Assembly (NCBI GenBank): GCA_029256485.1
Contig: JAQSXU010000001.1
Location: 124,001 to 188,000, forward strand
From: Clostridiaceae bacterium
GTDB taxonomy: Bacteria; Bacillota_A; Clostridia; Clostridiales; Clostridiaceae
Length of the DNA: 64,000 nucleotides
Direction: 5' to 3'
Below are positions 2,286 to 48,587 of the stretch, in pieces. The notes under the pieces are model-generated. The model saw only the letters and a list, made by a program, of their open reading frames with translations, searched no databases and was not told where the DNA came from. Position 1 is the first letter of the stretch. Every line of letters begins with the position of its first letter. Made by a program: the position numbers and the translations under genes.

Positions 2286-3296
2286 ATGTCAGTTATATTT
2301 TTATTAGTTATTATCGCAATGTTAATTATTATCAGAAACATTCGCATTGTTCCACAAAGCCAGACATATGTTATCGAAAGACTGGGTGCTTACAAAGAAT
2401 CATGGGGTACAGGTATACACCTTAAAATACCGTTTATTGATAGGGTTGCAAATAAAATAAGCTTAAAAGAGTTGGTTTACGATTTCCCGCCTCAACCAGT
2501 CATTACAAGTGATAATGTTACAATGCAGATTGATACGGTGATATTTTTTCAAGTGACTGATGCAAAATTATACACTTATGGAGTTACTAATCCGTTAAAT
2601 GCAATCGAAAATTTATCAGCTACTACATTAAGAAATATAATCGGTGAACTTGAACTTGATGAAACTTTAACTTCAAGAGATATTATTAATACAAAAATGA
2701 GAACTATTCTTGATGAAGCCACAGATGCATGGGGAATAAAAGTAAATAGAGTAGAACTTAAAAACATTCTTCCACCTAAAGATATAATGAATTCTATGGA
2801 AAAACAAATGAAAGCAGAAAGAGAAAGAAGAGAATCAATTCTTCAAGCCGAAGGACAGAAAACTTCTGCAATTCTTGTAGCAGAAGGTGAAAAACAAAGT
2901 GCTATATTAAAGGCAGAGGCAGAAAAACAAACTACTATATTAAGAGCAGAGGCTGAAAAAGAAAAGCAAATTAGAGAAGCAGAGGGTAAAGCAGAAGCTA
3001 TTTTAAGTATTCAAAGAGCAAACGCTGAGGGAATTAGATTAATTAACGAATCAAAACCTTCTAATGAAGTTTTAACTATTAAAACACTTGAAGCATTAGA
3101 AAAAGTTGCAAATGGAAAAGCAACAAAAATAATTATTCCTTCTGAATTACAAAATCTAAGCGGATTTGTAACTGCTATTAAAGAAACTGTTACCGAGCCA
3201 ATCAAGTTAAATGAAGATAAAATTACTGATATATCTAATGAAAAAGTAATCCATAAAGATATAATCAAAAACGATATGTTAGCTGATGAATATTAA
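2286..3296 (+). CDS. SPFH/band 7 (stomatin-like) protein
   Basis: A 336-residue protein with an N-terminal membrane anchor (about 2-18), then the SPFH domain (IVPQSQTYVIERLGAYKESWGTG at about 22, PFIDRVANKISLKE, VYDFPPQPVITSDNV) and a long alanine/glutamate-rich coiled coil (about 170-250, repeated AEGEKQSAILKAEAEKQ). This is the stomatin/QmcA layout: proteins that oligomerise on the inner face of the membrane and organise microdomains or protect against envelope stress. Cotranscribed with NfeD, with an RBS AAAGGAGG at ideal spacing. A second SPFH gene of the flotillin type lies at 40347. Confidence 0.9.
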   Translation: MSVIFLLVIIAMLIIIRNIRIVPQSQTYVIERLGAYKESWGTGIHLKIPFIDRVANKISLKELVYDFPPQPVITSDNVTMQIDTVIFFQVTDAKLYTYGVTNPLNAIENLSATTLRNIIGELELDETLTSRDIINTKMRTILDEATDAWGIKVNRVELKNILPPKDIMNSMEKQMKAERERRESILQAEGQKTSAILVAEGEKQSAILKAEAEKQTTILRAEAEKEKQIREAEGKAEAILSIQRANAEGIRLINESKPSNEVLTIKTLEALEKVANGKATKIIIPSELQNLSGFVTAIKETVTEPIKLNEDKITDISNEKVIHKDIIKNDMLADEY

Positions 3297-4549: not shown

Positions 4550-4783
4550 ATGAAAGGGCAATTATTTGTAAGAAAAACAGGGACAATGATTAATGGAGAA
4601 GAAGCAGTAATTATTACAGGCGTTGTAACACTAAACGAACTTGAAAAGTTTACCATTAATTCGGAGTGCCAGTATACTATAAAAAACATAGAACTGCATG
4701 AGAATTCATGTGTAAATAGAAATGAAATGGCAAAAGGAATGAGTATTGATGGTCTTTTATGTTCACCAATCTGGAGAGTATAA
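4550..4783 (+). CDS. Hypothetical protein, 77 aa
   Basis: GAGGAG precedes the ATG and the product is 77 residues with no domain I can name. It looks beta-rich (GTMINGEEAVIITGVVTLNEL). A reading frame of similar length exists on the other strand but lacks a ribosome site there, so the plus strand is preferred. It follows the kinase-CYTH gene by 48 bp and is probably cotranscribed with it. Confidence 0.6.
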   Translation: MKGQLFVRKTGTMINGEEAVIITGVVTLNELEKFTINSECQYTIKNIELHENSCVNRNEMAKGMSIDGLLCSPIWRV

Positions 4784-6238: not shown

Positions 6239-6754
6239 GTGATTTGGCAATTTTTAATTATATTTATAGCAAAGGTAATTGAAGTATCTCTAAGCACAAT
6301 AAGAACAGTATTTGTAACAAGAGGGGAAAAATTAATACCAGCAATAATAGCTTTTTTTGAAATTATGATATGGCTTAATGTTGTTTCAGCAGTAATAACA
6401 GGAATAAGTGAAAGCCCTGCAAGAATGATGGCGTATGCACTTGGATATTCTTGTGGTGTTTTTATTGGAGTATATATCGAAGAAAAATTGGCTATTGGAC
6501 TGATTACTATAAATGTTGTTTTAGGAAAGCAAGAAGGTATTAAATTAGCACAATACCTAAGAGAAAATAAGGTTGGTGTGACTGAATTAGAAGCAAAAGG
6601 AAAAGATGAAGAAAAGACATTTTTACTATTGCATGTTCAAAGAAAAAATAAAGAGAATATAATAAAGTTAATAAAAAACCAAGATTTAAATGCATTAATT
6701 TCTGTAAATGCTGTAAAAAATATTTATGGTGGGTTTGGGCTTGCAATTAAATAA
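6239..6754 (+). CDS. UPF0316/DUF2179-type membrane protein
   Basis: 171 residues beginning at GTG 6239 (RBS AGAAAGGAGAG). It has three N-terminal membrane helices with the family signature KVIEVSLSTIRTVFVTRGEK and YALGYSCGVFIGVYIEEKLAIG, then a soluble domain. It shares architecture and the GxxxGxYIxxKLxxxLxLG helix with the minus-strand protein at 5235-5780, so the two are divergently transcribed distant paralogues. They may form a heteromer, but this is inference. Confidence 0.8.
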   Translation: MIWQFLIIFIAKVIEVSLSTIRTVFVTRGEKLIPAIIAFFEIMIWLNVVSAVITGISESPARMMAYALGYSCGVFIGVYIEEKLAIGLITINVVLGKQEGIKLAQYLRENKVGVTELEAKGKDEEKTFLLLHVQRKNKENIIKLIKNQDLNALISVNAVKNIYGGFGLAIK

Positions 6755-8128: not shown

Positions 8129-9052
8129 TTATAGTCCTACTACAAAGCCAAAGCCCTCTACATTATCCCATATAGCATTTTTACTGATTTCTGCATGTGG
8201 TACAGCTATTTTAATTTCTTCGTTTAAAAGCAAGCTACTGCCACCAATAAATATGAAGTCCATATTATCTATATCCCAATTTCTCTTCTTTGCTTCTTTC
8301 ATTATTTCATCTACATAATCTTGTAAAAACTTAGAGATGACTTTTTTGCTTTCTTCTGGATTTTTTCTAATGAATCCATCTTTAATTACTGTTTCCATTT
8401 GCCATTCTTGTAAATTTGATTTAAATTCCTGGTTTAAGTGAAGTCTTAAATCATTTAACAATACATTGCCTCCTCTGTTAAGAGTAAAACAAGTGTTTTT
8501 CAAGATATCTCCTCTATCGTAAACACAAGCGTTAACGTTAAGCCCTCCGATGTCAACTACTCCGATTAATCTATCCTTGTAATAATCAAACTTTCGCAAA
8601 ATAATACCAGAGCTTTCTGGAAATATTTTAGCTTCTTCAAGTGTGAAAGAGAAAGGTTTGTTATTTACAATTAAATTTACTTTTTTATCTTCTGTAAGAA
8701 AATTAGAAAAAGATTGTCTTTCATCAAAGTTGTTAAACAAGTCCATTGGGCAACCTACAGCAATTTTAACTGTATCTCCATCATCAACCAATTGGCTTAT
8801 GGCTGTAAAAATAGCAATTTTATGAAGTATTTTTGTTTTGTCTTTATCATAATCAATTGCTTCAGCTTGTTTTCCAATCAATACTCTTTTGCCCTGGAAT
8901 TCAACAACGTAACTCTCTTTTGAAGTTGTTAATTTTTCATTTGTGTCATCCATTTTTGTTCTAAAGTACAATTGTACAATATTACCTGCTGAATCCTTTG
9001 TTATTGCTTTTGTTGCAAATTTACCAGAATCAATAGCTACTGCTCTTTTCAT
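8129..9052 (-). CDS. ParM/Alp-type actin-like segregation ATPase
   Basis: 307 residues from ATG 9052, chosen because TTTTAGGAGG is placed correctly for it; a longer frame upstream has no ribosome site. Actin-fold signatures are visible: phosphate-1 RAVAIDSGKFATKA at the N-terminus, phosphate-2 GVVDIGGLNVNACVY, and the adenosine loop FIFIGGSSLLL near the C-terminus. ParM-type proteins polymerise with ATP into filaments that push plasmid copies apart. Together with the downstream small gene this marks a low-copy, actively partitioned replicon. Confidence 0.9.
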   Translation of the reverse strand: MKRAVAIDSGKFATKAITKDSAGNIVQLYFRTKMDDTNEKLTTSKESYVVEFQGKRVLIGKQAEAIDYDKDKTKILHKIAIFTAISQLVDDGDTVKIAVGCPMDLFNNFDERQSFSNFLTEDKKVNLIVNNKPFSFTLEEAKIFPESSGIILRKFDYYKDRLIGVVDIGGLNVNACVYDRGDILKNTCFTLNRGGNVLLNDLRLHLNQEFKSNLQEWQMETVIKDGFIRKNPEESKKVISKFLQDYVDEIMKEAKKRNWDIDNMDFIFIGGSSLLLNEEIKIAVPHAEISKNAIWDNVEGFGFVVGL

Positions 9053-18185: not shown

Positions 18186-18347
18186 AAATCACGCTCCTAT
18201 AATTTGAATTATACTATAAATTAATAAAAAATGCTACATTTTTTATTAATGTTCTATAAAGCATAGCTATTTTATATCGAATTGAAAAAATACATATAAT
18301 TTAAAATCAACTCTATAAAAAATAATAATGTGATTGGAGGAATAATA

Positions 18348-20477
18348 TTGAATAATGAAATAAAAGAACAAATACTTGCTTATTTAACTGATATACCAGT
18401 AAATAAAGCGATAACGAAATTAAAGTTGGAAAGCGATTTAAAAATTTCTAAGGTTGAGAGGAAGATATTTGAAAATTCGATTAAAGAATTAAAAAAAGAG
18501 AATATTGTCCACACAACAAAGAAAAAGGGTTTAATGATTAATAAAAATATAAAGTTTATAATTGGAACATTTTTTTCTAATTGTAAAGGTTATGGTTTTG
18601 TAGTTTCACAAGATGAAAGTATTCAAGACCTATTTATTCCACAAAGCAAGGTAAATAACGCACTTCATAAAGATAGAGTTGTAGTAAAGATTATTAAAAG
18701 ACCTGAAAATAACAAAAGGGCAGAAGGTGAAATTATTAGCGTATTGTCAAGACAGTTAGAATCTATAATTGGCACTTATATGGCAAATGAAACCTTTGGA
18801 TTTGTAATTCCTGATAACAATAAGATAAATAGAGATATTTATATACCTCAAGGTTGCTCTAATGGTGCAAATTCTTACGATAAAGTAGTTTGTCAAATAA
18901 CCAAATATCCTGAAAGAGATAGAAAACCAGAAGGAGAAATAACTGAAATTATTGGAGTTAAATGGGACAAAGGGGTTGATGTGTTATCAATAATTAAAGA
19001 TAATAATATTAAATCTGATTTTCCTCCTAAAGTAATTAAATTTGTAGATAAAATTCCTGAAGTGATTAAAGAAGAAGAATTAAAGAGAAGAGAAAATCTA
19101 ACAGATTTAAAAATATTTACAATAGATGGCGAAGATGCTAAGGATTTAGACGATGCTGTTTCAATTAAAAAGCTTGATAACGGAAATTACCAGTTAGGTG
19201 TTCATATAGCGGATGTATCACATTATGTTAAGGAAAACTCAGTAATAGATAAGGAAGCTTTAGAAAGAGCAACCTCGGTATATTTAATTGATACTGTTAT
19301 CCCAATGTTACCTAAAAAGTTATCAAATAATCTATGCAGTTTGAATCCTAACACTATTAAATTAACATTGTCAGTATTTATGGATATTGATAAGCATGGA
19401 GTAGTAGTAAACCATAGAATTTGCGAATCTTTTATCAATACAGTAGCAAGATTAAATTACACAGAAGTTTCAGATTTCTTAGAAAATAATGATACTTCAT
19501 TTAAAGAGAAATATCCATTTTTATTAGAAGATATAAAAATTATGGAAGAGCTTGCTAAAGTATTAATGAAAAAAAGAAATGATAGAGGAGCAATTGATTT
19601 TGATTTTCCTGAAGCTAAGATTATTTTAAATGAAGACGGTAAAGTTAAAGACATAACTAAATATGATAGAAGAATATCTAATAAAATAATTGAAGAATTT
19701 ATGCTTGTTTGTAATGAAACTGTAGCTGAGATTTTCTTTTTAAAAGAATTGCCATTTGTTTATAGGGTTCACGAAAATCCAAGGATAGATAAACTTGAAG
19801 AATTTAGAGAATTTATAAAAGAGTATGGTTATTATCTACCAGAAGATTGTGAATGCATCAATTCTATTATGTTACAAGACATTTTAAATGAAGTTAAAGG
19901 TAAAAAGATGGGGCAAGCCTTTAATCTTGTGCTTTTGAAAACTATGCAACAAGCAAGATATTCACCAATATGTAATGGTCATTTTGGTTTATCAACATCA
20001 TTTTATTGTCATTTTACTTCACCAATACGAAGATACCCAGACCTTCAAATTCATAGAATTATTAAAGAATCATTACATGGAGAATTAAGTGTTATAAGAA
20101 AAGAACACTTAGAAGAAATTGTTAAGAATAGTTCTAAAATATCTTCAAGAAGAGAGAGAGTGGCTGAACAAGCTGAAAATGAACTTCATACAATCAAAAA
20201 ATTAGAGTTTATGGAAGATAAGATTGGTCAAGTATATGAGGGAATAGTGACTGGATTTAATTCAATTGGAATTTTTATTACTCTTGAAAATACTGCAGAG
20301 GGTATATTAAAAATAGATAAAATTAAAGATGATAATTATGAATTAGATAGAAAGCAATTCTCATTTATTGGCAAAAGTACTAATCAAAAAATAATGATAG
20401 GTGATAAAATTTTAATTTCGGTAAACAAAGTAGACGTTGATTGTAAAGAAATGTTGTTTGATTTCATATCTAAATAA
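18348..20477 (+). CDS. rnr: Ribonuclease R (RNase II/R family)
   Basis: 709 residues starting at TTG 18348, seven bases after GGAGG. An N-terminal winged-helix region, two cold-shock-like domains (GTFFSNCKGYGFVVSQDES, GTYMANETFGFVIPDNN), the RNB catalytic domain with FTIDGEDAKDLDDAVSI (the aspartate cluster at about 257-268) and GVHIADVSHYV, then a C-terminal S1 domain (GQVYEGIVTGFNSIGIFITL). RNase R degrades structured RNA 3' to 5', including tmRNA-tagged mRNA and rRNA. The copy is intact. It lies 3 kb from the Ro60-type locus; bacterial Ro proteins are known to team with 3' exonucleases, so a partnership is plausible. Confidence 0.95.
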   Translation: MNNEIKEQILAYLTDIPVNKAITKLKLESDLKISKVERKIFENSIKELKKENIVHTTKKKGLMINKNIKFIIGTFFSNCKGYGFVVSQDESIQDLFIPQSKVNNALHKDRVVVKIIKRPENNKRAEGEIISVLSRQLESIIGTYMANETFGFVIPDNNKINRDIYIPQGCSNGANSYDKVVCQITKYPERDRKPEGEITEIIGVKWDKGVDVLSIIKDNNIKSDFPPKVIKFVDKIPEVIKEEELKRRENLTDLKIFTIDGEDAKDLDDAVSIKKLDNGNYQLGVHIADVSHYVKENSVIDKEALERATSVYLIDTVIPMLPKKLSNNLCSLNPNTIKLTLSVFMDIDKHGVVVNHRICESFINTVARLNYTEVSDFLENNDTSFKEKYPFLLEDIKIMEELAKVLMKKRNDRGAIDFDFPEAKIILNEDGKVKDITKYDRRISNKIIEEFMLVCNETVAEIFFLKELPFVYRVHENPRIDKLEEFREFIKEYGYYLPEDCECINSIMLQDILNEVKGKKMGQAFNLVLLKTMQQARYSPICNGHFGLSTSFYCHFTSPIRRYPDLQIHRIIKESLHGELSVIRKEHLEEIVKNSSKISSRRERVAEQAENELHTIKKLEFMEDKIGQVYEGIVTGFNSIGIFITLENTAEGILKIDKIKDDNYELDRKQFSFIGKSTNQKIMIGDKILISVNKVDVDCKEMLFDFISK

Positions 20478-21837: not shown

Positions 21838-21925
21838 TTACATACTCCTCTTAATTTATTTTATGTAAAACACCTTTTTAATATATATATTTATTATATT
21901 ATAACTTTTTACAAAGAATTATAAA

Positions 21926-22156
21926 TTAAGAATCAGTGTTTTGTAAGTTATTATAGTCGATTTTTATTAGTTCATCTAAAGAACACTCCAAAGCAGAACA
22001 AATTTTTAATAAATTTCTTAATTGTATAGTATCTATATCTACGTTATTATCAAGGTTACTAATGACTTTCCATGATATATTTGCAATTCTACTTAGTTCT
22101 CTTAATGTCTTAATCCCTTTTTTTGCCATTAAAATACGCAAGTTTGATGTAATCAT
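21926..22156 (-). CDS. HTH (Xre/Cro-type) regulator, 76 aa
   Basis: ATG 22156 is preceded by AAAGGAGGATT. The product SNLRILMAKKGIKTLRELSRIANISWKVISNLDNN is a Cro/CI-like helix-turn-helix, followed by the usual LLKICSALECSLDELIKID tail. It is essentially a bare DNA-binding domain. It is transcribed divergently from the RNA array at 22493, so it is the leading candidate regulator of that array through the palindromic repeats at 22391-22484. Confidence 0.85.
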   Translation of the reverse strand: MITSNLRILMAKKGIKTLRELSRIANISWKVISNLDNNVDIDTIQLRNLLKICSALECSLDELIKIDYNNLQNTDS

Positions 22157-22299
22157 TTTATAAATCCTCCTTTCAATTTTCATTAAAGAATATATCGAGT
22201 TATATATTTAAAAACATAACACATAATAGTCAATATGTCAATTGAAATTGGCAATTACAACTTCAAATTGATGTTCGACAATTGTAAGATAATTTTCGC
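22157..22299. other. Regulatory intergenic DNA
   Basis: Contains ATAGTCAATATGTCAATTG (from 22227), a partial copy of the recurring TTGACTAT dyad pointing toward the HTH gene, and short mirrored CAATT/AATTG blocks at 22239-22284. No reading frame. Confidence 0.45.
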
Positions 22300-22327
22300 T
22301 TGACATAAATAAACTATATGTTATAAT
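22300..22327 (+). promoter_or_regulatory. Promoter of the RNA array
   Basis: TTGACA (22300-22305), 16 bp, TATAAT (22322-22327), followed by ATGAATTATAA. It is the best plus-strand promoter before the array and would give a leader of about 160 bases before unit 1. Confidence 0.75.
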
Positions 22328-22390
22328 GAATTATAACTTGATTATATGCAATAAACAATTATGTTAGTAATAAATTTAATTACAATGTAA

Positions 22391-22484
22391 TATAATTAAA
22401 TTATAATTGAGAGTTATCAAACATATTTTGAAATTATCATGGAATAGTTTCAACTATAATACAATATAATTAAATTATAATTGA
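22391..22484 (+). repeat. Two 20-bp direct repeats with palindromic core
   Basis: TATAATTAAATTATAATTGA occurs at 22391-22410 and again at 22465-22484. The first 15 bases are a near-perfect palindrome around a central A. Two such sites between promoter and RNA unit 1 look like operator sites. Confidence 0.7.
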
Positions 22485-22490
22485 CAATTT

Positions 22491-22617
22491 AATATGAGGT
22501 GCACTTAAGACTACATTTTGAAAAAAATACAGGATTATCTAATAATACAAATATTTCAGGGGTATATAATAATAAATACGCCTGGATAAAAAAGTCTTAA
22601 CATTAATTCCTTATATT
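22491..22617 (+). ncRNA. Array RNA unit 1 (Y-like RNA)
   Basis: A 127-base unit closed by AATATGAGG (22491-22499) with CCTTATATT (22609-22617), nine pairs with one G-U. The conserved motif GGTGC-N-AAGACTACATT follows, and TTAAGAC (22505-22511) pairs with GTCTTAA (22594-22600). A hairpin CAGGGGTAT/ATACGCCTG (22557-22584) tops the structure. The spacer downstream (22618-22715) holds further G-rich hairpins, e.g. GAGTTGATGTACAACTC (22657-22673). Confidence 0.8.
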
Positions 22618-22715
22618 AAAATTTACTTGACGATGGGTGGTAAAATCGTTCCATGTGAGTTGATGTACAACTCCGTTTAGGTGGTTAGGGCGATTAAATC
22701 ACTATTATGAAACTC

Positions 22716-22845
22716 GTTTCGGGGTGCTTTCAAGACTACATTAATTTGAGATTTTTTAAGAGATAGAAATATCAAGTTATATTAACGGAAGTTGATATAA
22801 CAGTAATAAGTAAAACAAATGTCTTGAACCAATTTTCTCTGAAAT
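22716..22845 (+). ncRNA. Array RNA unit 2 (Y-like RNA)
   Basis: Outer stem TTTCGGGG (22717-22724) with CTCTGAAA (22837-22844), two G-U pairs. Conserved GGTGC then CAAGACTACATT. Inner stem TTCAAGAC (22729-22736) with GTCTTGAA (22821-22828): the extra C and G relative to unit 1 are compensatory. Apical hairpin GTTATATTAAC-GGAA-GTTGATATAAC (22776-22801). Confidence 0.85.
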
Positions 22846-22848
22846 TTA

Positions 22849-23048
22849 TTTTTGAGGTGCATACAAGATTACATTAAAACAAGAATGGTATCTATTTAAA
22901 ATAGAAATTATCAGATATTGAATATCAGATAATTATTTAAAACGAATTACGTATCAAGTATGTAATATTTGATATGTAATAAGAAAGAATTAAATCCAGA
23001 TTAAAAATCTGAGATTTATTTGTATCTTGTGATAATTTTCCTTAAAAC
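22849..23048 (+). ncRNA. Array RNA unit 3 (Y-like RNA, C-G to U-A switch)
   Basis: Outer stem TTTTTGAGG (22849-22857) with CCTTAAAAC (23040-23048), eight or nine pairs. The motif reads GGTGC...AAGATTACATT: its C has become T. The partner strand ATCTTGT (23024-23030) has changed G to A, so ACAAGAT (22863-22869) still pairs. Inside are three stem-loops (AATTATC/GATAATT, ATTACGTATCAA/TTGATATGTAAT, CAGATT/AATCTG), a branched top. Confidence 0.85.
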
Positions 23049-23128
23049 TAAAACTTAGAAAAAACGGTTAGACCGTTTGGCATTAGGGGATACGTTCTAT
23101 TAATGTTTAAATAAAATTAAATACCATT

Positions 23129-23227
23129 GTGGGGTGCTGTTAAGACTACATTCATTTGAAAATAAAATTAAAGATATTTAGTTACCCAATAGGGGTAACA
23201 TTGCTGTCTTAATACACTTTTCCCTAC
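23129..23227 (+). ncRNA. Array RNA unit 4 (Y-like RNA)
   Basis: The shortest unit, 99 bases. Outer stem GTGGGG (23129-23134) with CCCTAC (23222-23227). Inner stem TTAAGAC (23140-23146) with GTCTTAA (23206-23212). Apical hairpin GTTACCC/GGGTAAC (23181-23199). The preceding gap (23049-23128) holds a hairpin AACGGTTAGACCGTT and CATTAG...CTATTAATG. Confidence 0.85.
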
Positions 23228-23237
23228 TAAATCAATC

Positions 23238-23427
23238 AATAAGAGGTGCTGGAAAGACTACATTTAAAAATTTAAAATCATACAAATTATAAAAATAATT
23301 TTTTGAATTAAACAATTTAGTGTAGAAATACCCAGATAGAACAAAGAAAACTTTTTGATAATAGAAATAAATTTTGCAAAAATTTATTAATCGTAATCAA
23401 CAGTCTTTCCGAAATTTTCCTTTTATT
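23238..23427 (+). ncRNA. Array RNA unit 5 (Y-like RNA)
   Basis: Outer stem AATAAGAGG (23238-23246) with CCTTTTATT (23419-23427), nine pairs with one G-U. Inner stem GGAAAGAC (23251-23258) with GTCTTTCC (23403-23410), perfect, again covarying with the other copies. A hairpin AATAAATTTT/AAAATTTATT sits inside. The 3' strand ends ...AAATTTTCC, shared with units 2 and 3. Confidence 0.85.
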
Positions 23428-23447
23428 ATGTATTGAGTAAAAATTAG

Positions 23448-23480
23448 GGATAAGCCAAAAATGACTTATCCTTTTATATT
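23448..23480 (+). terminator. Terminator between RNA array and the fusion gene
   Basis: GGATAAG (23448-23454) pairs with CTTATCC (23465-23471), followed by TTTTATATT. No promoter is evident between it and the 23532 gene, so the fusion gene is probably expressed by read-through and the RNAs exceed the mRNA in amount. Confidence 0.7.
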
Positions 23481-23531
23481 GATAAATTTAAAAATAAAAA
23501 AGAAAATATAAAAACAAAAGGAGATATAAAT

Positions 23532-26507
23532 ATGAAAAATATAGAAAAAGCAACAATGTTATTAAAATGCAAAACACTAAATGAAGGTAGTCTTATATAT
23601 AAAGCTCCATTGAAAGAAACCATAAAAACACCAGCAACTGAATTAGAAAATGGAGATATTCAGTTATGTATCAATAAATATACAACTAATCCTGTTATAA
23701 TTCCTCATAAAGATAGATATTTAAATACGCTGATATTAGGTTCTACAGGTGCTGATAAAACCTCACAAATATTACTTCCAATGATTAATCAGGATATGCA
23801 AAATCATGAATGTGGAATTACAGTAATAGAATCAAAAGCTGACCTTGCAGAAAAGGTATATGCAATGGCAAAGCACTATGGAAGAAAAGTTGTATATTTC
23901 AATCCATTATTACCTGATTGTCCATCATTTAATCCGTTTTTTGGTGATGAAAATGACGTGATTGAGAATATATCTATGACATTCAGAATGCTAAATTCCG
24001 ATTATTCACAATTCTTCCAAGATATGAATGAACAATTAATTAGATATTCAGTAATAGTTTTAAAAAGATTAATGGGGAATAAAGCTACTTTTGCTGAATT
24101 ATCAATGCTTATACGAAACTCTGATGGAATAGGAAGAAGAATGGTAATTAATTTTTCAAGATTAAGTGCAGAAACAGAAGCCATAGCAAAAGAAAATAGA
24201 GATATAGCTTTATGGTTTTTAACTCAATATTTTGATGAAAAATCAAAAACATATGAGTACTGTGATGGGCTTCGTTCAAAAATTGCAAAAATTATGTCTA
24301 ATACCCATTTAAGACAAATATTAAATCCTGATAATGAAGAAAGTGATATAGATTTTAATAAACATCTTACAGAAGGTGGAGTTGTTGTTATTACAACTGC
24401 ACAAGGAGTTTTGGGGAATTTAGGCGAATTTCTTGGTTATTCATTAATCCTTAACTTCCAATCAGCAGTATTAAAGAGACCTGGCAATAAAGATTCAAGA
24501 ATACCTCAGTTCTTGTATGTAGATGAATTTCAAACATATTCTAACCCAGGATTTAAATATATGCTCTCACAAGGTTATTCATGTCGTGTTGGTTGTCATC
24601 TTGCTACGCAAAATAGAACACTTATGGCAATGGGTGGGGGACAAAACAATAAAAACTTTATTGAATCGATATCTGAAAATGCAAGAAATATAATAATATT
24701 CCCAGGTATAAATACTGTTGATACTAAATATTATTCTGACCAGTTTAGTGAATTACTCAAATATGTTATTCAAAGAGGTATTCCAGTTGAATGCTGTTTT
24801 TCTCCACTGGATTTAATTTATAGGGAACTTGGAGAAATAACATACTGTGTAATTCAAAATAATACAATACAGCCTCCAGGAGTTGGGATAATTGAATATA
24901 TTCCAACAGAATTAAATGAAAAACTTGATGCAATAATAGAAGAATATAATACTACTATAAAAACCAATAAAGTCATTAAAAAAAGGAATCTTCAAACACT
25001 GGATTTTAAAGAAACTCTTGCAGAATTCTTCAGTCTTGGTCTTTTAAATGGCAACTTCTATCAGAATCAAGAGGAAGTGTTAAAAGATGCTAATGATATA
25101 TTTCAAAGAGCACTTGCAGAATGTCCAGAATTTGCAACTAAGTGTGCTATATTTGGTCACAAACAAAATTCACTTAGACTTGTTCCTACAGTTTGGTTAG
25201 TTTATCTTTCTACTTTAGAGGATAAAACTCTATTTAAAAAAGCATTTTCACAAATAATCTCTACATTCGATATGTTGTATGATTTTATGGAAATTGCAAG
25301 AAAGGGTAAAGTAAGAGAAGGTCTTGGTAGAGGAGTTAAAAAAGTAATGAATGATAGATTTATTTCGTTACTTAATGAATATCAGGCATGTCGTTATAAA
25401 GGAACAATTTCAGAAATAGCTAAAGTTACAAGACCTATAAATAACGATGATAACTTCCAAAAGATTATGAAATATGTATCTAAGGATGAATTGACTTTTG
25501 AGCGTATTATAGCATTAAAGGGAGTTATTGATAAAATGCTCAATGGAGAATCAAGTAATGAAATCCTTCAAACGATAAAAGAAAATAGGTTGCAATTAGA
25601 GGAACTTAAACATTCTACTTTCAAATTAACACAAGAAGGTAAGCAAAAGATTTACAGTGCTCTTTATGAAGGAATTAATTATTCTGCACTTGTTCGTAAT
25701 CTTGTTGCTTTGGAAAGAGTGTTTGCAACTAAAACAGAAAGTGTTGAAAAATATTCACAAGCAAGAGGTTTCTTTACTCAAACTATAGTGCTTGAAACAG
25801 ATATTCCATCAGCAATTGTTGACATGGTTTCTAATAGATTAAATGATGTTAGTATGTATAGAAAATCTAACATGTTGCCATTTGGATTATTAACAGCAGA
25901 AAAAATGAGCATTACTCCAGAGTTTCAACAAGCACTTGGGAAAATGCTAAGAAACACTGCAGAAGATTCCTTTAAAATTAATAAGGATATTTCAATTTTG
26001 CTTGGTGTAGATACTTCTGGTTCTATGTCTGGAAATATGGTAAATGATTCATTAGATTGTGCAGAGGTTTCTTCTGTATTTGGTTCTTTAATTAAAAAAG
26101 CCCATGCAAATACAGATGTCTATGCAGTTGCGTCTACCATGAAAAAGGTTAATTTAAACAAGCAAGACGATGTATTTGAAATGTCAAGGAAAATTCAGGC
26201 AACGAATGTTGGATGTGGAACTTTATTTAATCAAATAATGAAGCATTATAATGGACAAAAGTACATTATCTTAATTACTGATAATGAACCAGCCGATAAC
26301 TTAGAAAAAGCATGGTTATCAGCTAAGAATAAACCAGAGGGTGCAAAGCTTATTATTTGGAAAATGGTAGCCAATAAAAACAAAACTTCAAATGATAAAT
26401 CTGTTGCTCATGTATTTGGATATTCAGACCGAGTATTAGGGTTAATTAAGAATATCATTGAAGACAAATGTGGACAAGTTGAGGAAATTGAGAAGATAAT
26501 AATTTAA
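23532..26507 (+). CDS. VirD4/TraG-like ATPase fused to Ro60 (TROVE + VWA) protein
   Basis: 991 residues, RBS AAAAGGAG. Residues about 50-470 are a VirD4/TraG-type motor: Walker A GSTGADKTSQ (70-79), Walker B FLYVDEFQTY (D331, E332), ATQNRTLM and PGINTVDTKYYSDQF. No N-terminal membrane helices, unlike conjugation coupling proteins. Residues about 490-815 are a TROVE ring: LGRGVKKVMNDRF (near 600), ALVRNLVALERV, MLPFGLLTAEKM. Residues 820-985 are a VWA domain with an intact MIDAS (D827-T-S829-G-S831, CGTLF, LITDNEPAD). The order and motifs match Ro60, which binds Y RNAs and misfolded RNA. The third Walker A glycine is Asp (D75), so ATP hydrolysis may be impaired. Five structured RNAs lie upstream. 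Confidence 0.92.
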   Translation: MKNIEKATMLLKCKTLNEGSLIYKAPLKETIKTPATELENGDIQLCINKYTTNPVIIPHKDRYLNTLILGSTGADKTSQILLPMINQDMQNHECGITVIESKADLAEKVYAMAKHYGRKVVYFNPLLPDCPSFNPFFGDENDVIENISMTFRMLNSDYSQFFQDMNEQLIRYSVIVLKRLMGNKATFAELSMLIRNSDGIGRRMVINFSRLSAETEAIAKENRDIALWFLTQYFDEKSKTYEYCDGLRSKIAKIMSNTHLRQILNPDNEESDIDFNKHLTEGGVVVITTAQGVLGNLGEFLGYSLILNFQSAVLKRPGNKDSRIPQFLYVDEFQTYSNPGFKYMLSQGYSCRVGCHLATQNRTLMAMGGGQNNKNFIESISENARNIIIFPGINTVDTKYYSDQFSELLKYVIQRGIPVECCFSPLDLIYRELGEITYCVIQNNTIQPPGVGIIEYIPTELNEKLDAIIEEYNTTIKTNKVIKKRNLQTLDFKETLAEFFSLGLLNGNFYQNQEEVLKDANDIFQRALAECPEFATKCAIFGHKQNSLRLVPTVWLVYLSTLEDKTLFKKAFSQIISTFDMLYDFMEIARKGKVREGLGRGVKKVMNDRFISLLNEYQACRYKGTISEIAKVTRPINNDDNFQKIMKYVSKDELTFERIIALKGVIDKMLNGESSNEILQTIKENRLQLEELKHSTFKLTQEGKQKIYSALYEGINYSALVRNLVALERVFATKTESVEKYSQARGFFTQTIVLETDIPSAIVDMVSNRLNDVSMYRKSNMLPFGLLTAEKMSITPEFQQALGKMLRNTAEDSFKINKDISILLGVDTSGSMSGNMVNDSLDCAEVSSVFGSLIKKAHANTDVYAVASTMKKVNLNKQDDVFEMSRKIQATNVGCGTLFNQIMKHYNGQKYIILITDNEPADNLEKAWLSAKNKPEGAKLIIWKMVANKNKTSNDKSVAHVFGYSDRVLGLIKNIIEDKCGQVEEIEKIII

Positions 26508-26596
26508 ATTTCCTAAAATAAAAGAACTTTAATAATCAATGCAACGGGTTCAGTGTTGATGTGCAAAATATTAAATTCTCATTAGTTTTCACAAGT

Positions 26597-26628
26597 AAAA
26601 TCACATGCATTTTCGCATGTGATTTTTT
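26597..26628 (+). terminator. Terminator after the fusion gene
   Basis: AAAATCACATGC pairs with GCATGTGATTTT, followed by TT. It ends the array/fusion transcription unit 90 bases after the stop. Confidence 0.85.
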
Positions 26629-26750
26629 GCTTCATATTGTAATGTTTATAGACTATTTTTATAGAGAAAACATTAAAATTCACAAAGGTTTTCAATTAAT
26701 AATAAATTTATTATCGTTGTAAATTTGCTTGTGAATATCGTTGTGATTTT

Positions 26751-26969
26751 CTATACAATTACCTCTGAAAGAACATTCTCTTCAATTATTAAATCTTTAT
26801 AATTCACATCTAAGACCTTAAGCATTTCTAAAAATTTTTCAATTTGATTCAAGTTATTTCCGTTCATCCAGCGTGACACTGTGTTAACATTCACGCCTAT
26901 CTTTTCAGCAAGCTCAATTACTGTCATATCTTTTTTTACTAATTGAATTTTCAATAACTTAGTATTCAT
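26751..26969 (-). CDS. HTH regulator, 72 aa
   Basis: ATG 26969 is preceded by TAGGAGAG (a longer frame exists without a ribosome site). KLLKIQLVKKDMTVIELAEKIGVNVNTVSRWMNGNN is a Cro/CI-like HTH, followed by a short leucine-rich tail. Its promoter at 27005-27033 carries the recurring dyad in its -35 region, so it may be autoregulated or belong to that regulon. It converges on the array/fusion unit. Confidence 0.85.
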   Translation of the reverse strand: MNTKLLKIQLVKKDMTVIELAEKIGVNVNTVSRWMNGNNLNQIEKFLEMLKVLDVNYKDLIIEENVLSEVIV

Positions 26970-27004
26970 AATTATCTCTCCTAACACTTTAAAGTATTAA
27001 CTAC

Positions 27005-27033
27005 ATAATATACTATAACAATACAATAGTCAA
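27005..27033 (-). promoter_or_regulatory. Promoter of the 72-aa regulator
   Basis: Minus strand TTGACT (27033-27028), 17 bp, TATTAT (27010-27005); the surrounding AATAGTCAATA is the dyad half-site found at other promoters. Confidence 0.75.
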
Positions 27034-27493
27034 TATATTTATACAAATTAGTATTTCATCAATTATATTTCATAACATTATTGTATAGATTTATACAGTA
27101 CAATCTCTTTTGTAATTATTTTCCCATAAATAAGGACATTACTATAAAGTCTAACTATTTAACATAACAACATGTAAAAAATCACCTAAAAAATTTATGA
27201 TTAGGTGGTTTTTTTTGTGTGAATAGCTATGAGAATTTTTAAAATTTACCCTCAATTTTTATTGTGAAAATGCATGTAATTTTTGGTGTGATTTTTAAAT
27301 TTGCACCTCAAAACTGAGCCTGTTGTAATCAATGTTAGATGTCTTTTTTCTATATAAATTAAAAAAACTATTTAGAATTAGGACTAATTGGCTAATACTT
27401 TTTTATTAGACTTTTTTACATGGATAAATTCTTATATTCAAATTTTTCTATAGTATAATAAATTAAAAAACTTTTTAGAAGGGAGATTTATTA
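27034..27493. other. Non-coding stretch with one terminator-like hairpin
   Basis: AAAATCACCTAA pairs with TTAGGTGGTTTT at 27177-27214, with T-run after it. The rest is AT-rich with no frame. CTATAGTATAATAAA at 27450-27464 offers a -10 box for the 27494 gene. GCACCTCAAAA at 27304-27314 is a lone inverse copy of the array GAGGTGC word, without the rest of the motif. Confidence 0.5.
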
Positions 27494-28627
27494 ATGTTAA
27501 CGATTATTAATTTAAAGAATAAAAAAGTAGAACATTATGATTATGAGGAAATATATGAAGGAATGAAAGATGTAAATAGGAATAACTTTTTCAAACAATT
27601 ATATGAAAGAAATAAGTTAAAAGAAATTCATGCTTATTGTACATGTGTACCTGATAAAGAGATACCATTAGTTATTTCTAAATGGAAACATACTTATTAC
27701 GTAAAAAGACAAGATGCCTCAGTAGAACATAGTCCTACTTGTAAGTTTGATGGTGAATATGTTCATAGTTTAAAGGGGTGGGATGTACAGACGGATGGTC
27801 ATATAAATGTTTCATTAAAAGATAGATTATTTAATCTAAACTCATACAACAATATAAAAACTGGTAATAAATTAAGCCTTGAAGAATTCGTGAGAAGATA
27901 TATGGGATTTGTATGGGAATTACAATCAAAATATTTTCTTAAGAGCAATAAAGAGTGCGTGACTTATTCTGACTTTTATACTGGATTGCAATATTGGGCA
28001 AGTAAAATTAAGTTTACCGAAAGAATAAGTTTAAAAGAAATATTAGGTAATAGCAAAAGCAAGTCATATTCATTGTTAAAACAAAATCTAAGAATGTTCG
28101 TAATAAGTCAATTTGAAAGAAAAGAAAAGATTGATAAAACCACATATTTGATTTATTTAAAAAATCCAGACAATAATTATTTAATTGAAGTAACATGCCC
28201 GATAGAATTATGGAATGAAAAATATAAAGCACTTACAGTATCAAAAAGTCCTATATTAGTTTCTGGATTTGTTGAACTTATTAAAGATAAACCATTAAAT
28301 TTTGTAGATTTTGTGATAGTTCCTATATCAAATGAAGGCGTAGTTATTGATAATGAATATGAGAAAAAGTTATTTAATGCATTACATAAAAAGAAAAGGG
28401 TTTTTGTTAAATCATATGAAACATATAGAAATTTTCAAAATATTAAACCAAATGTAATGTTAATAGATAGTACGCCAGTCACACTTGTCGAAATATTTGA
28501 AGAAGATAAAACTAATAATGCTTATTACGAAGACAAGTTAAATAGATTAAATTATTTCAACACATTAGATAATTATAAAATTATTCTTTGGGATGCTTTT
28601 AATAATGAGAAATTATTTAAATTTTAA
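27494..28627 (+). CDS. Zinc-binding, nuclease-like protein (DUF1173-type)
   Basis: 377 residues. An N-terminal metal site is suggested by HAYCTC (about 47-52) and EHSPTCKF (about 78-85). Residues about 290-375 look like a PD-(D/E)XK nuclease-like fold: EYEKKLFNALHKKKRVFVKSYE, then KPNVMLIDSTPVTLVEIFEED and YYEDKLNRLNYF. The first acidic residue of the usual PD pair is Asn, so activity is uncertain. This two-part layout resembles DUF1173 proteins of integrative and conjugative elements. Monocistronic with its own terminator. RBS AGAAGGGAG. Confidence 0.55.
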   Translation: MLTIINLKNKKVEHYDYEEIYEGMKDVNRNNFFKQLYERNKLKEIHAYCTCVPDKEIPLVISKWKHTYYVKRQDASVEHSPTCKFDGEYVHSLKGWDVQTDGHINVSLKDRLFNLNSYNNIKTGNKLSLEEFVRRYMGFVWELQSKYFLKSNKECVTYSDFYTGLQYWASKIKFTERISLKEILGNSKSKSYSLLKQNLRMFVISQFERKEKIDKTTYLIYLKNPDNNYLIEVTCPIELWNEKYKALTVSKSPILVSGFVELIKDKPLNFVDFVIVPISNEGVVIDNEYEKKLFNALHKKKRVFVKSYETYRNFQNIKPNVMLIDSTPVTLVEIFEEDKTNNAYYEDKLNRLNYFNTLDNYKIILWDAFNNEKLFKF

Positions 28628-40346: not shown

Positions 40347-41825
40347 TTGTTATTTAAAATTTTAATACCAATCGTTATATGTATATTATTATTCGTGCTA
40401 TGTTGGAGAAGAATGCCAGCAGATAAAGCAATGGTAATAACAGGTTTGAAGAAAAGAGTTCTCAGTGGGCGAGGTGGCTTTATGTTGCCTTTTGTAGAAA
40501 CTTCGTGTCTGATTTCTTTGGAAAATATTTCAATGACTACAGACGTACTTAATTCTCCATCGAAACAAGGAATATTTATGGACATTGTAGGTACTGCAGT
40601 AATTAAAGTAAGGAATGAAGAAAAAAGCATTCTATCTGCAGTAGAACAGTTCTGTAGTGAAGGTTCTAAACATACAGTAGATGTAATTCAACAAATTATT
40701 GAACAAATATTGGAAGGTAAATTAAGAGGAATTATTTCAACATTAACTGTAGAGCAAATTAATGAAGACAGGGCTTCATTTGAAGCCAGAATAGAAGATG
40801 ATATTAGGTCAGAATTAGATTCTATGGGTTTAATGTTGGTATCATATACAATTCTAAAAATAGAAACTCAAGGAGGCTATCTTGAAAATCGTGCTGTGCC
40901 ACAAATTGCAAGAGCACAATCAGATGCTAATATTGCAACTGCCGAAAGAAAAAGAGATACTGAAATTAAAACAGCAGATGCCGAAAGAATCGGACAAAAG
41001 GCTAAATTAGAAGCTGAAACAGCAATTGCTGAATCCGAAAGGGACAAGTCATTAAAAGTAGAAAGCTACAGAGCCGAACAAGATAAAGCTAAGGCAAATG
41101 CTGATATTTCATATAAGTTAAAAGCAATTGAAAATGAAAGACAAATAGCAGAGCAAGAAGCTGAGTTGGCAAAGAAAAATGCCATAGTTGTAGAAGAAAA
41201 ACTGGTTGCTGAGGTTAGAAAACCAGCAGATGCTAAAAAGTACGAAGCAGAAGTTAAAGCAGAGGCAGATAAAATAATTGCTATAAAACAAGCAGAAGCA
41301 GAGGCAGAAGCTGTTAGAATAAATGCTATTGCAAAAGCAGACGCTATGAAAATTGAAGCACAGGCAGAAGCTGAGGCAATAAGAGCAAAAGGTCTTGCAG
41401 AAGCAGATTCAATTAAGGCAAAGGGTCTTGCAGAGGCAGAAGCTAAGGATAAATTAGCAGAAGCAATGGCTAAATATGGTGAGGCCGCAATTGTAGAAAT
41501 GATGGTAGGTAAGTTACCTGAAATTATGAAAGAAATAGCAAGACCTATGGAACAAGTAGATAAAATTACTATTATTGATAATGGTGGTAGCCAAGGAGCG
41601 TCAAAATTATCAAAAGTTGTAACAGATATAACAGCTAATGGATTTCAGTCACTAAAAGACATTACAGGAATAGATTTATCTGAATTGATTAATGGTTTTG
41701 TAAATTCTCCTAAAAACAATATTGTAAAAGATAAAATAAATACCATTCTCGATGTGGAAAAGGTAGAAGAAGTAATTGAAACAGTAAGTGAAACAGTGAA
41801 TATTAATGATAGTATAAATATTTAA
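40347..41825 (+). CDS. Flotillin-like SPFH protein
   Basis: 492 residues from TTG 40347 (RBS AAAAGGAG). N-terminal membrane segment (KILIPIVICILLFVLCW), SPFH domain (MPADKAMVITGLKKRVLSGRGGFMLPFVE ... ISMTTDVLNSPSKQG), then a very long alanine/glutamate-rich coiled coil (about 190-380, with repeated AEADSIKAKGLAEAEA). This is the flotillin/YuaG type rather than stomatin. Flotillins form membrane scaffolds in firmicutes. Without an adjacent NfeD gene here; the NfeD/stomatin pair is at 1841. A second, distinct SPFH system on one replicon is unusual. Confidence 0.9.
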   Translation: MLFKILIPIVICILLFVLCWRRMPADKAMVITGLKKRVLSGRGGFMLPFVETSCLISLENISMTTDVLNSPSKQGIFMDIVGTAVIKVRNEEKSILSAVEQFCSEGSKHTVDVIQQIIEQILEGKLRGIISTLTVEQINEDRASFEARIEDDIRSELDSMGLMLVSYTILKIETQGGYLENRAVPQIARAQSDANIATAERKRDTEIKTADAERIGQKAKLEAETAIAESERDKSLKVESYRAEQDKAKANADISYKLKAIENERQIAEQEAELAKKNAIVVEEKLVAEVRKPADAKKYEAEVKAEADKIIAIKQAEAEAEAVRINAIAKADAMKIEAQAEAEAIRAKGLAEADSIKAKGLAEAEAKDKLAEAMAKYGEAAIVEMMVGKLPEIMKEIARPMEQVDKITIIDNGGSQGASKLSKVVTDITANGFQSLKDITGIDLSELINGFVNSPKNNIVKDKINTILDVEKVEEVIETVSETVNINDSINI

Positions 41826-47093: not shown

Positions 47094-48587
47094 ATGAAAA
47101 ATAAATCAATAAATAAAAGTTTAAATAATAAAAGAAATCTTACTATGCTAATGGACTATTATGAAATGACCATGGGCAACGAATACTTTGTTAATGGGTT
47201 GAAAGATACAATAGTATATTTTGATAACTTTTTTAGAAAAGTACCTGATAAGGGAGGGTTCGTAATATCTGCAGGTCTTCAACAATTAATTGAGTATATA
47301 GAAGGCATGAGATTTACAGACGAAGATATTGCCTATTTAAGATGCAAAAACACTTTCAATGAAGGTTTCCTTGAATATTTAAGAAGCTTTAAATTTACAG
47401 GGGATATATGGGCTGTGCCAGAGGGTATGCCTGTGTTCCCAAATGAACCAATAATTACAGTAAGAGCACCTATTATTGAAGCACAATTAGTAGAAACTAT
47501 GATATTAACAACAATTAATCACCAAAGCTTAATTGCTACTAAAGCAAATAGAATAGTAAGAACAGCAAAAGGTAAACCAGTATATGAATTTGGTTCAAGA
47601 AGAGCACAAGGGTATGATGGAGCTGTGTATGGTGCAAGAGCGTCAATAATTGGAGGATGTTCGGGAACAGCTTGCACAATGGCAGGTGCAATGTTTGATA
47701 TACCTGTGGTTGGAACAATGGCTCATAGTAACGTTCAGTTAATGTCTTCTGAATATGAAGCTTTTAAAATGTATGCAAGGACATATCCAGACAATTGCTC
47801 ATTACTTGTAGATACTTACAATGTCCTTAAATCTGGTATTCCTAATTCAATAAAGGTATGGAATGAAGAAGTAGTAACAAAAGGATATAGACCAAAAGGA
47901 ATAAGGCTTGATTCAGGCGACCTTGCATATTTATCTAAAAAATCAAGGGAAATGCTTGATGAAGCAGGTTATTCTGATGCTAAAATAGGTGTTTCAAATT
48001 CGCTTAATGAGTATGTAATTAGAGATTTATTGATACAAGATGCAAAAATAGACTGGTTTGGAGTAGGAGAAAACTTAATAACAGCAAAATCTGACCCTGT
48101 ATTTGGAGGAGTTTATAAGTTAGTTGCAGTTGAAGAAGATGGGAAAATTAAACCAAGAATTAAAATATCAGAAAATATCGAAAAAATAACAAATCCATCA
48201 TACAAAAAAGTATGGAGATTATATGATAAAGATACAAACAAATCTATTGCAGACGTACTAACTTTGCATAATGAAAACATATCTAATGATAGTGAATATG
48301 AATTATTTGATGAAAAAGATTCATGGAAAAGAAAAGTAGTTAATAACTTTTATGCAATGGAAATACAGGAAAAAATATTCGAAAATGGCGAGTTAATATA
48401 CAATTCTCCTTCAGTTATGGAAATCCAAGAATTTTGCAAAGAGCAGATAGATACATTATGGGATGAATTACTACGATTAGAAAATCCACATAAATATTAT
48501 GTAGATTTATCACTAAAGCTATGGAATGTCAAAAATCAATTGATAAAAGAACATACCTTTAAAGGAGATGACTATGATGAAGAATAA
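47094..48587 (+). CDS. pncB: Nicotinate phosphoribosyltransferase
   Basis: 497 residues, RBS TCAGGAGGG. Family signatures: MDYYEMTMGNEYF near the N-terminus, FDNFFRKVPDKGGF, the active-site region EFGSRRAQGYDGAVYGARA, GGCSGTACTMAG, GTMAHS, RLDSGDLAYLSKK and GVGENLITAKSDPVFGGVYK. It converts nicotinate and PRPP to nicotinate mononucleotide, using ATP. Full length. It follows pncA and overlaps nadD by 14 bases. Second step of the salvage pathway. Confidence 0.95.
   Translation: MKNKSINKSLNNKRNLTMLMDYYEMTMGNEYFVNGLKDTIVYFDNFFRKVPDKGGFVISAGLQQLIEYIEGMRFTDEDIAYLRCKNTFNEGFLEYLRSFKFTGDIWAVPEGMPVFPNEPIITVRAPIIEAQLVETMILTTINHQSLIATKANRIVRTAKGKPVYEFGSRRAQGYDGAVYGARASIIGGCSGTACTMAGAMFDIPVVGTMAHSNVQLMSSEYEAFKMYARTYPDNCSLLVDTYNVLKSGIPNSIKVWNEEVVTKGYRPKGIRLDSGDLAYLSKKSREMLDEAGYSDAKIGVSNSLNEYVIRDLLIQDAKIDWFGVGENLITAKSDPVFGGVYKLVAVEEDGKIKPRIKISENIEKITNPSYKKVWRLYDKDTNKSIADVLTLHNENISNDSEYELFDEKDSWKRKVVNNFYAMEIQEKIFENGELIYNSPSVMEIQEFCKEQIDTLWDELLRLENPHKYYVDLSLKLWNVKNQLIKEHTFKGDDYDEE

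Follow-up and report, generated by a model that had tools for sequence, protein, structure and literature searches.

Bacterial Y RNAs have mainly been described as one or two per genome, and they typically carry a tRNA-like head. The basal stem of the Y RNA is held by Ro60, and in Deinococcus the Y RNA tethers the Ro60 ring to PNPase for the decay of structured RNA (PMC8394870, PMC7790460, PMC4726728). Salmonella has one or two known Y RNAs, YrlA and YrlB (PMC9879122), and its Rsr and YrlA bind PNPase (PMC9879122, PMC8394870). In Salmonella rsr-yrlB-yrlA-rtcBA and in the Deinococcus RYPER (Ro60, Y RNA, PNPase), the Y RNAs adjoin the Ro60 gene (PMC7790460, PMC8394870, PMC9879122). The window analyzed here, a 64,000-nucleotide stretch from a Clostridiaceae bacterium (assembly GCA_029256485.1, contig JAQSXU010000001.1, positions 124,001 to 188,000), has an array of five RNA units just upstream of a Ro60 fusion gene, and the tether-and-gate role of the Salmonella and Deinococcus systems is expected for these RNAs as well. 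The window differs from both systems in that RNase R rather than PNPase is encoded near the array, and the regulator is HTH_26 rather than RtcR. RtcB was not found among the 20 window proteins scanned with Pfam, which are a part of its open reading frames (ORFs). Overall we read the array as five tandem bacterial Y RNA cores with unrelated heads, predicted to be co-transcribed and to be bound by Ro60 as adaptors or gates, and we give this joint reading a probability of about 0.82.

The RNA units and their pairing

The five units have a two-stem core in common, while their heads are mutually unrelated. The units are 99 to 198 nucleotides (nt) long (Table 1). Each consists of an outer stem S1 (ending in GRGG), UGCN, an inner stem S2 (NNNAAGAY), UACAUU, the head, S2' (RUCUUNNN), a U-rich linker, and S1' (mostly CCYY). 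A sequence-only reading had located five units here, and reading of 22488-23427 found them at the same places, with the stem pairs that it listed, including the C-G to U-A change in unit 3. It had given three or four nt between RGGTGC and AAGAYTACA, but the spacer is four nt in every unit. The shared word RGGTGCNNNNAAGAYTACA occurs in the window five times as an exact match. With up to two mismatches there are six matches versus 0.24 expected from shuffles, the sixth being at 16444 within the recG ORF, and for the gapped form 0.01 is expected by chance. The array contains no ORF of 50 or more amino acids. Rfam has no match in the window at gathering scores, and its Y RNA models have none in 21900-27600 even at E<=10.

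Table 1. Position and strand of the array, the Ro60 fusion gene and neighboring features, in window coordinates (S1, outer stem; S2, inner stem)
Feature	Position	Strand	Remarks
RNase R (RNB, CSD2, OB_RNB, S1)	18330..20477	+	same strand as the array, 2 kb upstream of it
HTH_26 regulator	21926..22183	-	divergent; HTH gene in same place and orientation in L001, similar ORF in L004
Conserved intergenic region, HTH gene to array	22184..22299	.	TCAATTATAGTTGA-like repeats
Promoter-like TTGACA-16-TATAAT	22300..22327	+	12/12, TG before second hexamer; 160 nt upstream of unit 1
Y RNA unit 1 (predicted)	22488..22620	+	S1 TTTAATATGAGG/CCTTATATTAAA, S2 TTAAGAC/GTCTTAA
Y RNA unit 2 (predicted)	22716..22845	+	S1 GTTTCGGGG/CTCTGAAAT, S2 TTCAAGAC/GTCTTGAA
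Y RNA unit 3 (predicted)	22850..23047	+	S1 TTTTGAGG/CCTTAAAA, S2 TACAAGAT/ATCTTGTG; C-G to U-A switch
Y RNA unit 4 (predicted; penultimate)	23129..23227	+	S1 GTGGGG/CCCTAC
Y RNA unit 5 (predicted)	23238..23427	+	S1 AATAAGAGG/CCTTTTATT, S2 TGGAAAGAC/GTCTTTCCG
Hairpin GGATAAG..CTTATCC, then TTTT	23448..23475	+	terminator-like by eye; called by scan on - strand only
TraG/VirD4-like fragment (about residues 1-475) fused to Ro60 (about 490-991)	23532..26507	+	open ORF of 991 codons

Both stems covary, in the window and in related loci. The 3' arms were picked with a sequence motif that is blind to pairing, so the test against chance is not circular. This rule took the next unit's arm for L007_942 and the nearer of two arms for L004_4470. 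In the window 64 of 65 tested pairs form, and the true assignment of 5' to 3' arms is the best of 120 possible. Nine loci have 36 sites, and a 3' arm is present by the rule at 34 of them, the others being L004 4739 and L008 1115. These 34 units form 425 of 442 tested pairs, compared to 338.5 +/- 7.2 with arms shuffled among units; none of 5000 shuffles reaches the observed number, and the highest is 364. Homologous loci that lose the pairing, which the sequence-only reading had named as evidence against itself, were thus not what the nine loci showed. When 33 units are aligned, pairing having been used in part to choose the arms, the share of cells that pair is 88.6% in register, versus 69.8% in shuffles and at most 53.1% when slid. 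Several pairs are switched as a whole in this alignment with no exception (GC17/AU16; CG24/UA9; AU15/UA13/CG4/GC1).

When the window units are folded freely, S1 is wholly contained in the minimum free energy structure of all five, and S2 in that of four. S2 of unit 3 has a competing fold in silico, with a mean pair probability of 0.61. The folding energies are 2.9 to 5.6 standard deviations below those of 100 dinucleotide shuffles. Across the 36 units, S2 is complete in 30 and S1 in 28.

Two units of one related array appear to be entangled. Within L004 4462-4760 the unit at 4470 has two candidate 3' arms, and the nearer one fits better the inner stem of the unit at 4739, which has no 3' arm. 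The pattern looks as if the units had swapped parts or one had entered the other.

Relation to known bacterial Y RNAs

The core resembles that of Y RNAs bearing the YrlA head. To judge from its sequence, it is the Ro60-side module of bacterial Y RNAs, and the window units are very probably Y RNAs. They are encoded beside Ro60, and like bacterial Y RNAs they have a conserved internal loop within a two-part stem formed by their 5' and 3' ends. The sequence-only reading had proposed a family of Y-like RNAs by argument from vertebrate Y RNAs. The family is supported, since the same core sits under a YrlA-like head in three spirochaete units, and its close relatives are bacterial. Vertebrate Y RNAs (presumably Rfam RF00019) also have a conserved Ro-binding stem and a variable top, but they have no Rfam match in the window.

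The spirochaete units connect the core to YrlA. In three of the six tested, the core lies below a T arm, a capped acceptor and a D arm. These three score 28.8 to 42.7 bits against Rfam YrlA (RF02553), under the gathering score of 69. In L007 the S1, UGC loop, S2, CUA, S2', ACUU linker and S1' of the YrlA consensus fall on the corresponding letters of the unit. Like YrlA, the window units are encoded beside Ro60 and have an outer and an inner stem, UGC in the 5' strand of the asymmetric internal loop between the stems, and UA(C) directly after the inner stem. Unlike YrlA, they have no tRNA-like head and no score, and their inner stem has fixed letters (AAGAY/RUCUU). By T- and D-arm patterns, a tRNA-like head is also lacking in the 23 other Bacillota array units, giving 0 of 28 with the window. 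YrlA has no match in loci L001-L004 at E<=2.

More distant Ro60 genes have Y RNAs of the same plan with different letters. In the class of genome G001 (398 genomes), 19 genomes have a Ro60 relative, and two of these are of the close type. Twelve of 18 distant-type loci were run against Rfam, and every one of them matches YrlA at E<=0.005, though with less than the gathering score. The spirochaete locus L126, run in addition, has no YrlA match. In the chromosomes of Bacilli (L130-L147), such loci have 18 sites, many of them near-identical, and 16 have a 3' arm by sequence alone. L147 overlaps L133, and L142 has no site by the pattern. S2 forms 8/8 pairs in all 16, S1 forms 8/8 in 15, and 15 have tRNA-like letters. 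The order of parts is an S1 of 8 bp, a 5' loop, an S2 of 8 bp, UAC, the head, S2', a U-rich 3' linker and S1', with Ro60 downstream, as in the window. The differences are a 5-nt loop CGCNN for UGCN, AAGGGU for AAGAY, UACUUC for UACAUU, the presence of the tRNA-like head, and the finding of only one or two copies per locus.

The arrays appear to be the new part, since bacterial Y RNAs linked to Ro60 are known, large arrays lacking the tRNA-like head are missed by Rfam thresholds, and no report of them was found. Chen et al. 2014 (RNA 20:1715) reportedly found Y RNAs close to Ro60 in over 250 species of bacteria and phages, and some of the loci described here may already be in its tables. In the titles and abstract openings of papers outside subscription, there was nothing on Y RNA arrays, Y RNAs in tRNA arrays, or a TraG-Ro60 fusion. 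An array of this kind is a natural swap experiment on the function of the Y RNA head, with the same ring, the same core and many heads.

Occurrence and linkage to Ro60

The core is linked to Ro60, and the RNA family is rare. A tblastn search with P0043, a relative of the window Ro60, found 49 plasmid records, four of them with more than 50% identity. Three were taken, from Aneurinibacillus (721,710 bp), P. polymyxa (pSC2, 510,118 bp) and Brevibacillus (414,359 bp), and the remaining record is also from P. polymyxa. Searching genome contigs with a profile gave five more Ro60 loci, four on spirochaete contigs and one on a 739,256-bp contig of Bacillus sp. M6-12. In all eight of these further close-Ro60 loci the motif precedes Ro60 and shares its strand. 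The sole viral Ro60 match (L009, 21% identity) lacks the motif at its locus. A 36-base piece of unit 4 matches four of 72,556 plasmid records, exactly the four with a close Ro60, and none of the 45 plasmids with more distant TROVE genes. The pattern has 34 matches in nine whole records or genomes, 30 in Ro60-side arrays and four in tRNA arrays, and the reversed pattern has none. Among 344 Spirochaetota genomes the motif occurs only in G002, which was known already. In the family of G001 (43 genomes), the RNA is confined to G001 and so is Ro60, so that co-occurrence there rests on one genome. The specificity of the core pattern would allow its use as a marker of this Ro60 subfamily, which Pfam TROVE missed in both cases tried. 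The expectation of relatives on clostridial plasmids and phages was only partly borne out: those found lie on megaplasmids or large contigs of Bacillota, on spirochaete contigs and on one viral contig, and in one bacterial tRNA array.

The arrays look old, as their units are colinear between genera and one stem is kept. The five Bacillota arrays, carried by plasmids or contigs of very large size, have 5 (the window), 9, 2, 3 and 10 sites, one of the ten without a 3' arm. Between Aneurinibacillus and Bacillus, units 1-5 are colinear (14 of 15 S2 letters; 1 of 120 permutations). The S1 of the penultimate unit, given for unit 4 in Table 1, has identical letters in all five Bacillota loci.

Two other non-coding blocks lie inside related arrays. 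L001 4879-5037 resembles L004 4852-5012 (76% identity), and L001 5158-5329 resembles L004 4228-4389 (70%), with the order of the blocks swapped between the loci. Neither has an Rfam match up to E 2, and they are perhaps other structured RNAs.

Some copies of the core are found among tRNA genes. Bacillus sp. M6-12 has two short cores of about 70 nt (L094 9457-9611) among 45 tRNA genes, and the viral contig L034 has two (6340-6406, 8688-8754) among 28. No Ro60 gene was seen near either pair. Among seven proteins scanned on the L094 contig, the genes were for metabolism and transport rather than phage functions. GOLLD RNA is likewise a structured noncoding RNA within large tRNA clusters, with suggested phage mobility (PMC9569102), but the L034 and L094 copies are Y RNA cores of about 70 nt. 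Copies among tRNA genes suggest a link between the Ro60 particle and tRNA. Two loci have a tRNA-like gene (Rfam tRNA, 49-52 bits) placed after the array and before Ro60 (L001 5893-5960, L004 5802-5872), in which no anticodon can be read. One could guess that this free-standing gene replaces the missing head, with the tRNA mimic made as a separate RNA.

A covariance model of the units, R2, was built with trimmed heads and is biased to short heads, and the counts given here therefore rest on the pattern and pairing scripts. At E<=1, R2 matches 18 times across ten sources, with a single match in the window. Unit 4 scores 54.0 bits with this model, which was built partly from it. On the 18 distant Ro60 loci its single match is L135 (E 0.088). 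In viral contigs, 77 stretches have one 5' motif match each, and those with R2 matches at E<=1 are L034 (two), L016, L056 and L083. The pairing scripts, which additionally require a purine before GGTG, find a good 3' arm in L034 alone; the one in L086 is weak. A looser viral scan gave 18 stretches, including L034; three of them (L152, L153, L162) have a short hairpin of a different make (R2 E 0.003-0.04). The L016 match (514-564) was rejected, as the motif there is coding and GGTGCTGGTAAGACTACA reads GAGKTT, a Walker A. Codon runs of this kind are a class of false positives for simple scans with the 5' motif. In the phage collection, blastn with a 37-base unit piece gave four records at E of about 6, all within annotated genes, and these were taken as chance.

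Function, the fusion protein and neighboring genes

Transcription of the array is predicted to start at a sigma-70-like site. A scan for promoter-like sites found 19, compared to 13.8 in shuffles, and only the site at 22300 has the full score. The array would be transcribed from this site under the divergent HTH_26 protein, which likely regulates it, and 22184..22299 may act as an operator. This region is conserved: 21997-22296, which includes part of the HTH gene, has 73.7% identity to L001 3108-3405, and 21953-22302 has 69% identity to L004.

The shared core would be a handle for Ro60, and the heads would be variable working ends. By analogy with known Y RNAs, the Ro60 ring very likely binds S1-UGC-S2-UAC. 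Several Y RNAs would then compete for one ring and bring different substrates or partners, each head being a different adaptor or gate. The RNA bound to the ring would be passed to a 3'-5' exoribonuclease, as in the Deinococcus complex of Y RNA, Ro60 and PNPase, and the likeliest candidate is the RNase R of the window. Five copies of the core by the Ro60 fusion gene and nine on a related plasmid make it likely that these bacteria keep a set of interchangeable RNA adaptors that steer other RNAs to destruction.

RNase R is possibly the nuclease partner, but this part of the proposal is tentative. Three of the five elements encode RNase R 2-5 kb before the array and on its strand, and these three have the larger arrays, of 5, 9 and 10 sites. 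In the accessible literature there was no report of an RNase R gene beside Y RNA arrays, and it gives a concrete second nuclease to weigh against PNPase. Alternatively the units could be Ro60-binding Y RNAs that act as decoys, or as gates closing the ring, or as partners of a host nuclease such as PNPase, with RNase R unrelated. This is about as plausible as the link to RNase R, and each falls short of even odds. The missing RNase R in two of the five elements fits it, as does the binding of PNPase by Salmonella Rsr and YrlA (PMC9879122, PMC8394870). The position of RNase R in the 5-, 9- and 10-site elements argues against it, as far as five elements allow. So does sequence identity: the enzymes near the Aneurinibacillus and Bacillus sp. 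M6-12 arrays are 56-57% identical to that of the window, whereas another RNase R that G001 encodes on a separate contig is 42% identical. PNPase was not found on the three complete plasmids.

The gene downstream of the array is an ORF in which a TraG/VirD4-like fragment is fused to Ro60. The identity of the Ro60 half is given by PF25045 (vWA_Ro60, 36.5 bits with a cut-off of 27.7), and by PDB profile and fold, which match solved Ro60/TROVE chains over both parts. The TraG part has neither the N-terminal membrane segment nor the Walker A motif GxxGxGK[ST] of TraG/VirD4 proteins. Its Walker A site is GSTGADKT, while four aligned relatives have GPTGSGKT (three) or GPTGCGKT (one). Its paralogue P0003, a TraG relative with an intact Walker A, has about 120 N-terminal residues without counterpart here, and these read as membrane-spanning. 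The relic has probably lost both ATPase and anchor, and a docking or purely structural role is therefore likelier than pumping.

The fusion could instead be a broken by-product of traG/ro60 recombination, with the window array heading for decay. The altered Walker A, the missing membrane part and the truncated N-terminus of Ro60 are consistent with this, and among the 120 best of 176 proteins none covers more than 53% of the fusion. However, the ORF is open over all its codons with a ribosome-binding-like AAAGGAG ahead, the DTSGS of the vWA domain is kept, and all but one of the tested pairs of the window RNAs still form. Decay of this kind is rather unlikely. An extended form of the preferred reading is similarly doubtful: a modular toolkit of large mobile elements with one Ro60 ring, up to ten co-expressed Y RNAs with interchangeable cores whose heads each recruit their own partner or substrate, an RNase R of the element as nuclease, and spare short copies in tRNA arrays, the ring being set in this window on a relic of a conjugation coupling protein. 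If it is true, this would be an RNA-sorting particle docked at DNA-transfer machinery.

Several results weigh against the reading of the array as Ro60-bound Y RNAs that serve as adaptors. Rfam YrlA matches none of the five window units, not even at E<=10, and a tRNA-like head is missing from all of them. Among the spirochaete units, the YrlA model is in the expected register only in L007; in L005 (E 0.022) and L008 the inner stem of the unit is aligned with the outer stem of the model, so that the match there is carried by the head. Owing to the trimmed heads with which it was built, R2 recovers a single window unit of the five at E<=1. There is no RNase R on pSC2 or the Brevibacillus plasmid, and the enzyme is therefore not a general partner. 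PF05731 TROVE is not matched by the Ro60 half at E<=0.001, and the G002 relative is missed likewise. The Ro60 half also lacks the first 30 or so residues (with EGG..Y) that are present in unfused relatives, and the fusion protein could be impaired.

It is improbable that the units, rather than being free RNAs, are cis-acting leaders by which the Ro60 gene is controlled, in the manner of riboswitches, T-boxes or attenuators. Their position just upstream of Ro60 on the same strand, in the window and all eight further motif loci, would suit leaders, and so would the hairpin with a T-run after the last window unit. However, the copies among tRNA genes in L094 and L034 have no Ro60 gene in sight, as many as ten copies whose heads are unrelated do not resemble a leader family, and no Rfam leader matches the window or L001-L004. 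Still less credible are functionless decayed or selfish repeats spread beside Ro60, for although copy number varies from 1 to 10 and two of 36 sites lack a 3' arm by the sequence rule, both stems covary, units 1-5 are colinear between Aneurinibacillus and Bacillus with the penultimate S1 kept in five of five loci, and the 721, 510 and 414 kb plasmids have no scattered copies.

Other genes of the window include one for nicotinate phosphoribosyltransferase (47094-48587), which is also found near the Ro60 locus on pSC2 (L002 937-2508) and is perhaps a shared accessory gene of these elements. The window also encodes two Band_7 (SPFH) proteins (2286-3296 and 40347-41825), one of them flotillin-like.
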